Source of the DNA: Enterococcus silesiacus
GTDB lineage: Bacteria; Bacillota; Bacilli; Lactobacillales; Enterococcaceae
Direction of reading: 5' to 3'
DNA: 64,000 nucleotides
Assembly (NCBI GenBank): GCA_001465115.1
Contig: CP013614.1
Location: forward strand, 2,790,001 to 2,854,000
The position numbers were made by a program, and so were the translations under genes. The notes below the pieces were generated by a model that was given only the letters and a program-made list of their open reading frames with translations, did no database searches and was not told the origin of the DNA. Positions within the stretch are counted from its first letter, which is position 1. Every line of letters begins with the position of its first letter. Below are positions 48,587-58,662 of the stretch, in pieces.

Positions 48587-49435
48587 TTACGTTTCTCTTT
48601 GACTCATTTTCTTATTTCGTTGCATCGTTACAACTAATTTTCGGACGATACTGACAAGAATAAATAATGCGATAAAAATCAATGTGATGCTGGCACTTGG
48701 CGGTGTTTCTAAATAATAAGACCCCGTCAATCCTGTTAGCATGCCAATCAATCCCATGATAACACTAATAATAATGACCGTATTAAATCCTTTACCAATG
48801 CGCATCCCGATTGCAGCCGGTAAAACCATGATCGCTGATATCAATAACGCGCCCGCAATTGGGATCATTACAGCGATTGCTACACCTGTGATCACGTTGA
48901 ACAGCATCGACATCCAGTGAATGGGTAATCCGTCCACATGGGCTGTATCTTCATCAAAGGTCAACACATACATCGGACGTTTGAATAAGACAAACAAAAT
49001 CACTAATACTACAAATAGAACCGCCAAAATAACGACCTGCTGCCATGTGATCGTCACGATCGAGCCAAATAGATACGACTGGATACTGGCCGCTGAATTT
49101 CCTCCGCTGAGGTTCATCAGCACCAAAGCTAAAGCTAAGCCACCGGACATTAAAATCGCAATCGAAATTTCCGAATACGTACTATAGATCATTCGTAGAT
49201 ATTCTAAAATAATAGCGGCAATGATCACGACAACCAGTGTCATGATATCTGGATTCCAATTTAAGAAGAATCCTAAAGCAACTCCAGCGAGTGATACATG
49301 AGAAAGAGTATCCGCCATTAAAGATTGTCTTCTGATCACAAGAAACACACCTAACATTGGTGCAATAACCGAAATAAAGGTTGCAGCTAAGAAGGCTTTT
49401 CTCATGAACTCATATGAAAGCATCTCCAAAATCAT
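48587..49435 (-). CDS. adcB: Zinc ABC transporter permease
   Basis: A 282-residue ABC-3 family membrane subunit with about eight hydrophobic segments. LVIRRQSLMADTLSHVSLAG and PIAGALLISAIMVLPAA are family signatures. It should work with AdcA and AdcC, yet lies 8.5 kb from adcC. The frame starts at 49435 (MILEMLSYEF) after an AAGGAGG site. The older start is probably the internal ATG (MLSYEFMRK), which lies in a 24-bp sequence also found at the 3' end of adcC. Upstream is a separate Zur box, so it keeps zinc control although split from its operon. Confidence 0.92.
   Translation of the reverse strand: MILEMLSYEFMRKAFLAATFISVIAPMLGVFLVIRRQSLMADTLSHVSLAGVALGFFLNWNPDIMTLVVVIIAAIILEYLRMIYSTYSEISIAILMSGGLALALVLMNLSGGNSAASIQSYLFGSIVTITWQQVVILAVLFVVLVILFVLFKRPMYVLTFDEDTAHVDGLPIHWMSMLFNVITGVAIAVMIPIAGALLISAIMVLPAAIGMRIGKGFNTVIIISVIMGLIGMLTGLTGSYYLETPPSASITLIFIALFILVSIVRKLVVTMQRNKKMSQRET
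49405..49428. repeat. 24-bp direct repeat, adcB copy (left boundary of the inserted segment)
   Basis: Identical over 24 bases to 57985-58008 (begins TGAACTCATATG, ends AGCATCTCCA on the plus strand). In this copy it covers codons near the start of adcB. In an uninterrupted adcC-adcB pair one copy would hold both the adcC stop and the adcB start. Confidence 0.85.
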
Positions 49436-49540
49436 TTTCCTCCTTGTTACATAAAGCTTTAGAAGCCTATTATATTTTGTGGGAACAGTCGTGAGAACAC
49501 TAAGGTCTCTTTTCCTGCACCATTACGTTTTAATAACTCA

Positions 49541-49559
49541 AATCGTAAGAGTTACGATT
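49541..49559 (-). promoter_or_regulatory. Zur box upstream of adcB
   Basis: AATCGTAAGAGTTACGATT is a perfect 8-3-8 palindrome like the Zur box of the adcA promoter. The flanking base sequence is also similar: on the minus strand CTTGCTACTTAATCGTAA here and CTTGCTACTAAATCGTAA before adcA. About 105 bases of leader separate it from the adcB start. Confidence 0.85.
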
Positions 49560-49794
49560 AAGTAGCAAGATATACTTTAGCATTATAAAAACAACTAGTC
49601 AAGAGAATTATTCTAAATAATCTGATCTACCCTTTTTACCACTTCTACATCTTCATTTGACTATAAAGGTAATTCGAAACTTTGGTGTATTGCTCTAAAT
49701 TTTGTTCACATCCAACCTTGCTTTAGAAAGATTCCATCATATAAATTCATATCAATATTGTGCTTTCTCAAAATCTCAATTCAGTAGAAACACG

Positions 49795-51072
49795 CTACTT
49801 TAAGCTATCCTTTCGTATCAGTCTTACGAATTTTTTCATTGCTAAATACATTTTTGTCTTCAAACTGCTTGTGTAGAATTTAAACTCTCCTATAAGTTCG
49901 ACTGCGTATCCGTTAAAAGCTTCTTTAAACTTAAGAACACCATCACTGCCATCGAAGTTTCCTTCTATCCCATAAAAATTATATAAAGGAATGTTATTTT
50001 CCGCTGTATATTTAAGCATTTCATCTTGTATCAAAAAAGGAGCATACATATTTTTATACTGCTCAACTGTTCCAGAAAACAAGTATACAACTTCATGAGG
50101 GCATATTAAAAATAGCGCACATGCCAAAATAATTGTATTATTAACGTTTTTTTGCTGGATAAGTAACGCTTCAGCGATTCTTTTTTCGTATGTTACTTTT
50201 TGCGATAACAATTCCTTTTTTTGATTCGCTTTTTTCTTATAACCTTTCTTCAATTTATTATCGTGTTCATCCAAATATGAATTCAGGTCTTTGATTTTTT
50301 TCGATAATTTATCCTTTTTTTGAAGTAAACCATCCAAGTAATTTTGTATATTTAGTTCAGCAATTAAAAATTTTGCTTGGTCTCCATAAATTTTATATAC
50401 TTGTTCATAATATAAAAGAGATTTATCATGAAAATTTCTTCTTTCGCTAGTTTCTTCTGTAATTTTTTTGAACATGGATAATTCACTATAATCTAAGTTT
50501 CTTACTTTGATGCCAAACTGATTCGTTTTTTTCAGACTATAAACAGCTTCCTTATTGTAAGTTTTTGCTAGTTCTTTATAAGAAAATCCTTTAATATCTT
50601 TTGCATAAATCCAAAAAGGATTTCCGTTATCATTAAATCCTCTCTTCGCAGGTTCATAGTCGAATCCTTCTTCTGAAAAAAATTGAACTGCTTTATTATC
50701 AATTTCTCCAATCTGATTTCCTACGTTGTCAAACATTCCATGTCTAATATTTGGTTGGATTATCATATATATTCCATTATTTTTTTTTACAAATTTTTTC
50801 ATACCTGATATGAATACTTTAAAATTATTCTCTTCACTAGGCATCTCAAATCCAGAAATATTATACTCAAAACCAACTCTTAGTTTCAGTCTTGTTGCTA
50901 CAGCTGCATAAACAACTTTGCCACACTGATCTTTTAATCCTACAAAAAATACTGATTGTCCTCTAGTTTTCTTTAAATCAGCCATTTCTATTGTTTGTAA
51001 ATAATTTCCTTTTTTTGTTTTTTCCGTATACTCCACAAATTCTTTTCTACTTATCTCATCACTAAAATGCAT
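49795..51072 (-). CDS. FemAB-family peptidoglycan bridge aminoacyltransferase
   Basis: A 425-residue Fem protein that would use aminoacyl-tRNA to extend the interpeptide bridge on lipid II. Two GNAT-like subdomains are present: YAAVATRLKLRVGFEYNISG in the first, and LFSGTVEQYKNMYAPFLIQD with LYNFYGIEGNFDGSDGVLKF in the second. A Lys-rich coiled-coil arm (about 260-310, LDGLLQKKDKLSKKIKDLNS) is inserted between, as in FemA/FemX. It is more AT-rich than its neighbours and lies inside the segment between adcC and adcB. The amino acid added is unknown; a chromosomal bridge enzyme should exist elsewhere. Confidence 0.85.
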   Translation of the reverse strand: MHFSDEISRKEFVEYTEKTKKGNYLQTIEMADLKKTRGQSVFFVGLKDQCGKVVYAAVATRLKLRVGFEYNISGFEMPSEENNFKVFISGMKKFVKKNNGIYMIIQPNIRHGMFDNVGNQIGEIDNKAVQFFSEEGFDYEPAKRGFNDNGNPFWIYAKDIKGFSYKELAKTYNKEAVYSLKKTNQFGIKVRNLDYSELSMFKKITEETSERRNFHDKSLLYYEQVYKIYGDQAKFLIAELNIQNYLDGLLQKKDKLSKKIKDLNSYLDEHDNKLKKGYKKKANQKKELLSQKVTYEKRIAEALLIQQKNVNNTIILACALFLICPHEVVYLFSGTVEQYKNMYAPFLIQDEMLKYTAENNIPLYNFYGIEGNFDGSDGVLKFKEAFNGYAVELIGEFKFYTSSLKTKMYLAMKKFVRLIRKDSLK

Positions 51073-51230
51073 AAAAATTCCCCCAAGACATGTCTTTACT
51101 TCATCTTAAGAGTGTGCAAAAAACGATAGATAGTTTCAATTATTTAATTATTTTTACCTATTTTTCATTTAATAATATAATCATATCTTTTAGTCATGTA
51201 TTTAACCTTATTATAGACTAAATATAAAAG

Positions 51231-57724: not shown

Positions 57725-57757
57725 TGTGTAATCTCCTTTTTTTAATTTTGTAACCCT

Positions 57758-57835
57758 ATTATATGAAACCTCTTTCAAAAGATATATAGTATGCGCTTAC
57801 TTATAAACGTATTTCAAAAGTTGAAACATATTTCA
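57758..57835 (-). promoter_or_regulatory. Promoter, cre site and paired operators of the PTS-GH4-gnd-kinase operon
   Basis: On the minus strand TATAAT lies at 57763-57758. TGAAACCTCTTTCA (57764-57777) and TGAAACATATTTCA (57822-57835) are two near-identical palindromes with centres 58 bp apart, good candidates for RpiR binding. AGTAAGCGCATACT (57801-57788) between them misses the cre consensus by one base. The -35 is weak, which suits activation or a repression loop. Confidence 0.6.
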
Positions 57836-57870
57836 TGAAGCATAGTCGTTTTTTAATTATGTAAAACAAA

Positions 57871-57898
57871 AAAACTTGTGGAAATTTCCACAAGTTTT
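57871..57898 (-). terminator. Terminator after adcC
   Basis: A perfect 28-base palindrome (AAAACTTGTGGAAA and its complement) followed on the minus strand by TTTGTTTT, 75 bp past the adcC stop. It ends the adcA-adcC transcript before the inserted operon. Confidence 0.8.
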
Positions 57899-57972
57899 AG
57901 GACGCTATTTTTTCAGCACAATAGAAATTAAATACCTCTGCATAATTCATTTAAACAGTATACTGGCACATT

Positions 57973-58662
57973 TTATGCGATATCTGAACTCATATGAAAG
58001 CATCTCCACTCGGAGTCCTCTTTACGAACCAAACGGATTTGTCGATCTGCATAAGATTTGATATCTTCATGATCGTGAGTAATCATCAAAATCGCTTTAC
58101 CATGATCATGAGCATTATGTTTTAAAAGGCGATAAAATTCGTTTCTAGACGTTTCATCCATCCCTGTTGTTGGTTCATCTAAAATAAATAAATCAGGGTC
58201 TGTCGCAAAAATACGCGCTAAACTGATGCGTTGTTTCTGTCCACCAGAAAGTTCACCGATCCGTTTATGACGCATGTCCCACATGCCAACTGCTTTCAAG
58301 GCTTTTTCCACATGCTGATGGTCTCTTTTTGTCAATGGTTTAAACCAGCGATTACGTGGAAAACGGCCTGAGCGCACTAACTCGATCACGGTACTTGGAA
58401 ACCCTGCATTAAATGACGCCACTTGCTGAGGAATATAACCAATACTCAGTTTTTCACCTGTTGTATTTTCTTTTGCGATCGTGATTTTTCCTTTAGTTGG
58501 TTTTAATAACCCTAAAGTACTCTTGATCAATGTCGATTTGGCTGCACCGTTTTCTCCTGTTAGAATCACAAATTCACCAGGATCGACATAATAGGAAACG
58601 TCCTCCAAGACTGGCTCATCATCATAATAAAATGTAAGGTCTTTGACTTCTAGATAATGCAT
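57973..58662 (-). CDS. adcC: Zinc ABC transporter ATP-binding protein
   Basis: A 229-residue ABC ATPase: Walker A LTGENGAAKST (the Ala before Lys is usual in AdcC), Q-loop GYIPQQ, signature LSGGQKQRISLAR, Walker B DLFILDEPTTGMD, and switch His MITHDH. It energises zinc uptake with AdcA and AdcB. The last residues, CFHMSSDIA, are encoded in and beyond a 24-bp repeat of the adcB start region; without the insertion the protein would end CFHMSS at a TGA. Confidence 0.94.
   Translation of the reverse strand: MHYLEVKDLTFYYDDEPVLEDVSYYVDPGEFVILTGENGAAKSTLIKSTLGLLKPTKGKITIAKENTTGEKLSIGYIPQQVASFNAGFPSTVIELVRSGRFPRNRWFKPLTKRDHQHVEKALKAVGMWDMRHKRIGELSGGQKQRISLARIFATDPDLFILDEPTTGMDETSRNEFYRLLKHNAHDHGKAILMITHDHEDIKSYADRQIRLVRKEDSEWRCFHMSSDIA
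57985..58008. repeat. 24-bp direct repeat, adcC copy (right boundary of the inserted segment)
   Basis: Identical to 49405-49428. Here it codes for the last residues of AdcC and is followed by only three more codons. Confidence 0.85.

Follow-up and report, generated by a model that had tools for sequence, protein, structure and literature searches.

A decayed integrative and conjugative element splits an enterococcal zinc-importer operon and appears to provide adcB with a Zur-type promoter

The window analysed here, a stretch of 64,000 nucleotides, comes from a single-contig 3.93-Mb Enterococcus genome, with E. ureasiticus, E. caccae and E. crotali among its near named relatives. On its minus strand, the genes adcA and adcC of a zinc-importer operon are parted from adcB by 8.5 kb of other genes (the island), the order being ispE, adcA, adcC, the island, adcB and purR, in which the two flanking open reading frames (ORFs) are those that we take to be ispE and purR. 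According to Pfam and NCBIfam profiles, AdcA, AdcC and AdcB resemble the zinc-binding lipoprotein, the ATPase and the permease of a zinc importer, respectively. In E. faecalis, passages of PMC8966984 describe the same adc genes as an operon under Zur repression that the chelator TPEN induces, with Zur repressing adcA. The island is bounded by two copies of a 24-bp sequence, regarded here as attachment (att) sites, and the host features at the locus are as follows.

48587..49435, minus strand: adcB, permease, host gene, now 8.5 kb from adcC (Pfam ABC-3)
49405..49428, minus strand: 24-bp att copy on the adcB side, spanning the adcB start (identity to 57985-58008)
57973..58662, minus strand: adcC, ATPase, host gene, whose last codons and stop beyond the 24-mer are derived from the island (Pfam ABC_tran; comparison with the intact junction)
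57985..58008, minus strand: 24-bp att copy on the adcC side, covering the last adcC codons (identity to 49405-49428)
58739..59716, minus strand: adcA, zinc-binding lipoprotein, host gene (Pfam ZnuA, 3.3e-93)
59737..59751, minus strand: Zur-type operator at the adcA promoter of the host (TCGTAANNNTTACGA has only two exact sites in the genome, of which this is one)

The two copies of the repeat are identical at 24 of 24 nucleotides, and by our arithmetic the chance expectation of such a pair in 12 kb is about 1e-6. A preliminary description of this DNA had reported the perfect repeat at the start of adcB and the end of adcC and had proposed that an intact junction would need only one copy together with the TGA; both points agree with what is seen in contiguous relatives, in which the junction usually reads ATGGAGATGCTTTCATATGAGTTCATGA, with the first ATG as the adcB start and the last TGA as the adcC end. 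The overlap of the two genes lies across the 24-mer, the adcC TGA follows it directly, and the native start of adcB is GTG in two of the 13 contiguous genomes. Within the genus sample of 22 genomes, adcC and adcB were contiguous in these 13, split by islands in eight (including the window) and separated by a scar in one. Every contiguous genome had a single 24-mer (10 exact, three with one mismatch), and two copies flanked each insertion. Six of the eight genomes with an occupied site, the window included, had an intact or decayed integrase gene at the adcB-side end. Of the two origins that the preliminary description had offered, an insertion with duplicated attachment sequence is upheld by these observations; the other, recombination between two adc copies, failed, as described below. 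That contiguous adcC-adcB might be the derived state is contradicted by the overlap found in all 19 less related Enterococcus and Tetragenococcus loci examined (L012-L028, L030 and L032; adcB 72-78% identical).

The gap between adcC and adcB is 0.7 kb in E. larvae, 3.4 kb in E. sp. 5H, 4.7 kb in E. moraviensis, 6.8 kb in genome G084, 29.9 kb in E. quebecensis and 36.6 kb in E. termitis; with the eighth split genome, G091, island sizes range from 0.7 to at least 36.6 kb. On both sides the islands end at the 24-mer, which is exact except in E. larvae (one and three mismatches) and on one side in 5H (one mismatch). E. quebecensis has four 24-mers (183900, 163749, 161482 and 154014 of its contig), which delimit three islands in tandem. 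In G091, adcB (2410582-2411412) and adcC (2617645-2618328; both on C1; L099 and L102) lie about 206 kb apart on opposite strands and each keeps its own element end, and this split is an inversion, or an assembly fault, with the breakpoint inside the element. The genome with the scar, G086 (L103/L111), has two degenerate 24-mers 82 bp apart; here an island was probably deleted almost completely, bringing adcB back close behind adcC. Occupied sites were scattered over the species tree, and G084 was sister to G077, whose site is empty (support 1.0), and not to the window genome; the inner support of this tree was weak, and it was used only for these two points. The 5H island carries a WXG100 protein with its neighbours, that of E. 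moraviensis an ABC transporter and that of E. quebecensis membrane and CHAP proteins and a glycosyltransferase (the last by eye only); no clear gene lies in that of E. larvae. In 5H (L007 6933-9606), the WXG100 protein is accompanied by a larger protein with a sub-threshold lipase match, and the two are perhaps a type VII secretion substrate cluster. G091 has two SpaA/LPXTG paralogs, one in each half and in opposite orientation.

An intact tyrosine integrase of 407 amino acids (aa), with Arm-DNA-bind_4, SAM-like and catalytic domains, adjoins adcB in E. termitis, and a small DUF3173 protein precedes it. The same island encodes a Rep_trans/MobT-like relaxase (of which the first 277 residues were scanned), an FtsK-type protein, TcpC, a VirB4-like ATPase, an EF1877-like membrane protein and a lysozyme/CHAP protein, the names MobT and EF1877 being taken from NCBIfam matches below the cut-off. 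With an integrase, a relaxase, a coupling protein and VirB4 between its att copies, the island of E. termitis is an integrative and conjugative element (ICE); inside it also lies a protein with four homing-endonuclease-associated HNH_repeat units (L009 5216-6379). The integrase of G091 is intact as well, adjoins adcB and is 95% identical to that of E. termitis, but the transfer genes are far more distant (29-40%), so that one integration module is seen with two conjugation modules. The integrase is broken in E. quebecensis (seven stops in one part), its last 60 residues are left in 5H and 31 in E. moraviensis, short scraps persist in the window, and no significant match was found in the islands of E. 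larvae and G084. In the window, 49741-49646 matches residues 323-354 of the E. termitis integrase at 47% (expectation value (E) 6.6e-6; a sensitive search over 2.7 kb with no composition correction), with two stops inside, and a C-terminal scrap extends to a stop codon at 49615-49613. The segment had been described as free of integrase, which is wrong because these scraps remain in it.

Throughout the family sample of 105 genomes, close integrases (95-100% identical; two genomes) and all long matches to the element end lay at the adcC-adcB locus only. At E 1e-80, the integrase was found in two of 395 genomes sampled from the order, both of them already known, and further integrases exist at 59-72% identity (P0002-P0010). 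The family shares TcpC, a Rep_trans/MobT-like relaxase, a VirB4-like ATPase and an Arm-DNA-bind_4 integrase at one end with Tn916-type elements; whereas those elements use AT-rich targets with low specificity, according to passages of PMC4701971, the present family was seen at one fixed site only across the sample of 105 genomes and is thus not of the Tn916 type in the strict sense. The window segment has 24-mers at both ends, of which one exists at the empty site, retains only integrase scraps, and is homologous to the E. termitis element at its adcB-side end and not at its adcC-side end. It is a decayed ICE that resembles a cis-mobilisable element (CIME), and its structural reading as an att-flanked decayed element at the adcC/adcB overlap is close to certain. 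Several enterococci have a split zinc operon, for which this element family accounts.

Ten element ends of the adcB-facing type were aligned (eight at first, to which those of G084 and G091 were added). Within about 200 bp before the 24-mer, just past the integrase stop where this is kept, they carry TTGACT and TAAAGT (with a TG extension) separated by 17 nt, a palindrome of the Zur type, TGTTC-type repeats (one or two), a short inverted repeat and GGAG. The parts of this end in the window are as follows.

49613..49741, minus strand: tyrosine integrase gene, scraps of its 3' end (match to the E. termitis integrase, and sequence)
49574..49602, minus strand: putative promoter, TTGACT (-35, 49602-49597), 17 nt and TG-extended TAAAGT (-10, 49579-49574) (outline in common with adcA promoters)
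49540..49560, minus strand: Zur-type operator just downstream of the -10 box (alignment, exact pattern and matrix score)
49477..49499, minus strand: two tandem TGTTCYCAC repeats, possibly arm sites of the integrase (sequence)
49439..49445, minus strand: AAGGAGG, a ribosome-binding site from the island, 9 nt from the TTG start at 49429-49427 (sequence)

The promoter was conserved in all ten ends, on the element side of the att site. The order and spacing of these parts are the same at the adcA promoters of the genus, with collinearity from the -35 box through the operator to a further half-site, and CTTGAC, TAAA, TCTTGC and TTACG occupy matching columns in at least 20 of 21 sequences (10 ends and 11 adcA promoters). 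The 276-bp adcB-side end of the window was found at the adcC-adcB locus in eight of the 105 family genomes, all of this genus, and seven more matched 45-102 of its bases, six of them by position at the adcA promoter and the seventh (G062) untraced. In its own genome, the end matched only itself and the adcA promoter (E 4.3e-8) at a threshold of E 1e-5, and the exact operator pattern TCGTAANNNTTACGA occurred at two places in the 3.93 Mb, the element end and adcA, as compared with one for a control pattern. We also scored the ends with an operator matrix trained on 30 of 31 adcA boxes, one box with six mismatches having been left out. All ten ends scored 14.9-22.1 bits, and of 772 control chunks of 215 bp, only three reached 14.9; these hold the adcA promoters of L002, L003 and L029, and the highest score after them was 13.2. 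The chunks also took in the element ends, plus an adcA box each from L029, L009 and L010, and by our count these were cut by chunk borders; all ten ends outscored each of the 769 chunks with no complete adcA box. Judged by matrix and exact pattern, the operator resembles that of the adcA promoter, and the element end would thus be a candidate member of the zinc regulon.

An adcA-like promoter upstream of adcB is also what recombination between two adc operon copies would leave, if one copy had lost adcB and the other adcA and adcC. We regard this origin as scarcely credible, since a search at E 1e-100 gave one adcC and one adcB match in each of the 22 genomes, most islands end in integrase sequence, which lies between the promoter and the cargo, and the promoter recurs at the inner ends of the E. 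quebecensis array. An adc-related duplication does exist by sequence likeness, in that the element end bears the adcA promoter. Two observations assign this promoter to the element, not to the host locus: both elements with an intact integrase carry it, and it is still present at the inner ends of E. quebecensis, which are followed by another island and not by adcB. In a promoter tree, the element ends clustered apart from the adcA promoters (support 0.92) and nearest to that of E. larvae, but the tree rests on about 80 columns and is weak. The promoter was kept in all eight species with islands of at least 0.7 kb, including those in which the integrase is gone or nearly so (the window, G084 and E. 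larvae), and was absent from the 82-bp scar. This distribution, eight against one, fits what selection on adcB expression would predict, in a small and phylogenetically uncorrected sample.

Based on these results, we consider it highly probable that a family of ICEs, decayed in the window, targets the 24-bp adcC/adcB overlap, that the element ends repair the split, and that the adcB-side end gives adcB a zinc-controlled promoter. Site-specific recombination at the 24-mer would split the adcACB operon and leave both genes complete. The adcC-side end would supply a stop codon, which lies inside the island after SSDIA in the window and is an immediate TAA in 5H and E. termitis, and in the window it would add a terminator-like hairpin as well.

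57871..57898, minus strand: terminator-like hairpin downstream of adcC, inside the island (12-bp stem)

Terminators were rejected as a general feature of adcC-side ends, since a scan of those of L007, L102, L029 and L096 found none and that of the window was the only one found. Some other left ends show, by eye, inverted arms whose loop exceeds the length allowed in the scan, and in L104 the only terminator lies on the minus strand inside the adcB-side end. On the other side of the island, the element end would supply adcB with the promoter, the Zur-type operator, the ribosome-binding site and the start codon. The first base of the native adcB start is one base outside the repeat and the island places T there, so that the native ATG or GTG would become TTG unless a nearby ATG is used; the window has an ATG two codons before the TTG. 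The promoter and operator may be a diverged copy of those of host adcA. With the operator directly behind the -10 box, Zur loaded with zinc should block transcription there, as at adcA. adcB would then stay repressed by zinc and be induced by zinc starvation together with adcA and adcC, so that all three subunits would remain under common control. Of the integrase, only scraps are left in this genome, but the promoter and operator are kept, and a sugar operon and a FemAB gene lie between the att copies. It also seems likely, with less assurance, that the element family captured an enterococcal adcA promoter and operator as its own end, which would act as a regulon-matched adaptor maintained by selection after integrase decay. 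Control of transfer genes by the Zur-type promoter across the joined ends of a circle, which would link conjugation to zinc, was dropped as a direct mechanism. The first two ORFs of at least 90 aa inside the adcC-side end of E. termitis face the other way, and the promoter would not drive them from a circle.

Several observations weigh against this interpretation. The exact operator pattern has 12 fixed bases and is expected about 0.5 times per genome by our arithmetic, so that its rarity alone is no proof, and sites with one mismatch were not enriched (10 places in the genome versus 24 for the control pattern). One operator half is degenerate in five of the ten ends (E. larvae, 5H, E. termitis, G091 and the outer end of E. 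quebecensis), two of them on intact elements, and repression may be weak there. The regulatory part is a prediction from sequence, and Zur was not singled out among the Fur-family proteins of the genome (L126-L128). A search of the window island for nine E. termitis element proteins at E 1e-8 detected none, and the genome contains no close integrase (14 matches, the best at 37%, none an ortholog); present mobility is therefore unproven, and movement would now depend on functions provided in trans or on a newly accreted element. The adcC-side end of the window is unlike the ICE ends and recurs only in G084, and it may stem from recombination and not from the original element.

The degenerate half-sites, the expected number of exact matches and the lack of enrichment would also suit an ordinary decayed ICE whose end promoter is incidental, for example one that once served element genes, with the Zur-like palindrome arisen by chance. 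ICEs often end beside int with outward transcription, as Tn916 does, which counts for such an origin. We nevertheless judge it unlikely, because the likeness to adcA promoters is collinear and includes shared bases, such as CTTGC, outside known motifs, all ten ends score above every control chunk that lacks a complete adcA box, the first two ORFs of at least 90 aa inside the adcC-side end of E. termitis face the other way, and the promoter persists where the integrase is gone or nearly so. A ZinT-family gene has one of the one-mismatch boxes upstream of it. At four places of the same genome (L087, L088, L091 and L093), TCGTAACTTTTACAA recurs with similar surroundings, beside transposase-like ORFs as seen by eye, and these are probably insertion-sequence ends and not Zur sites.

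Between the att copies, the island contains a FemAB gene, an RpiR regulator and a sugar operon, as had been stated earlier, and the latter includes a phosphotransferase system (PTS) gene and a glycoside hydrolase family 4 (GH4) gene.

49795..51072, minus strand: FemAB aminoacyltransferase (Pfam FemAB, 1e-98)
51598..52320, plus strand: RpiR/MurR-family regulator, rpiR (profile search)
52413..53804, minus strand: FGGY kinase, nearest to gluconokinase, gntK (profile, below the equivalog cut-off)
53801..54706, minus strand: 6-phosphogluconate dehydrogenase, Gnd-related, gnd (profile, above the cut-off)
54771..56102, minus strand: GH4 glycosidase (profile search)
56102..57778, minus strand: PTS EIICB of the glucose/alpha-glucoside type (profile searches)

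The regulator and the sugar genes recur in the island of G084, whose adcC-side end is also similar and which has no FemAB gene and no detectable integrase. Between the two genomes, gnd, GH4 and PTS are 95-96% identical (synonymous divergence (dS) 0.13-0.24), whereas purR, adcB, adcC, adcA and ispE are 84-91% identical (dS 0.51-1.07); gntK (dS 0.38) and rpiR (dS 0.83) fall between or among the core values. The low dS of gnd-GH4-PTS relative to the flanks suggests that a part of the island crossed lineages after the species split; the island is a mosaic. Such movement, perhaps by homologous recombination, together with the deviating adcC-side end, would be expected if homologous or illegitimate recombination had brought in the sugar operon and the FemAB gene, with the 24-bp repeat as a by-product and not an att site. 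That is improbable, since the 24-mer, exact or with up to three mismatches, bounds islands in seven other species, five of which differ in cargo and carry integrase sequence at the corresponding end; of the remaining two, G084 shares the cargo and E. larvae has 0.7 kb only. Homologs of GH4 that are 81-90% identical occur in the family genera g3, g5, g6 and g7, which are a plausible source of the sugar operon. The nearest relatives of the FemAB protein are 72-74% identical, one of them in E. ureilyticus; the protein may conceivably serve in cell-wall branching or in immunity.

The series of decay and the tandem array follow the pattern of ICE decay and accretion of streptococcal CIMEs. As depicted in passages of PMC7563491, these CIMEs and the tandem arrays of ICEs and integrative and mobilisable elements share with the present islands att-flanked cargo with no recombination and conjugation genes, tandem accretion, carbohydrate cargo and near-empty remnants (microCIMEs). 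Those composites occupy the 3' ends of rpmG, rpsI, fda or rplL, whereas the target here is the overlap of two genes of an operon, and the element end here bears an apparently regulated promoter. Elements that supply promoters are already known: dusA elements provide one for their target (PMC8409611; proposed in PMC4482086), with dusA expression being reduced for IMEVchUSA3 (PMC8409611), and SXT in prfC does so as cited in PMC8409611. As in the present case, the dusA elements and SXT give the interrupted gene a new promoter and 5' end, but they replace the N-terminus, whereas the AdcB protein is nearly unchanged. The passages of PMC8409611 and PMC4482086 contain no link between the promoter and the regulator of the target, unlike the operator here, which matches that of the host operon itself. 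Tyrosine-integrase ICEs of streptococci at the 5' end of rbgA or ebfC likewise alter the sequence upstream of their target; passages of PMC4701971 describe the new upstream sequence as completely different in two rbgA cases and one ebfC case and suggest that expression is affected.

In the open literature, judged by title and the beginning of the abstract, no element at adcC-adcB and no element end controlled by Zur or bearing the operator of the target operon were among the matches listed. What appears to be new, on the sequence evidence, is a regulon-matched promoter in mid-operon. The site lies inside a regulated metal-transporter operon, and the element seems to offset the cost with the right regulated promoter; if so, the adaptor makes a mid-operon site tolerable. 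If transcription confirms this, mobile elements can carry the host regulatory logic for the locus they occupy. The conjugative element, the island, the 0.7-kb remnant and the 82-bp scar form a natural series for measuring selection on the promoter.

The host AdcA (325 aa) has no ZinT domain, and the NCBIfam AdcA model spans both parts. A separate ZinT protein with a Zur-type box upstream is encoded at L086 1501-2293 (132026 of the same genome).

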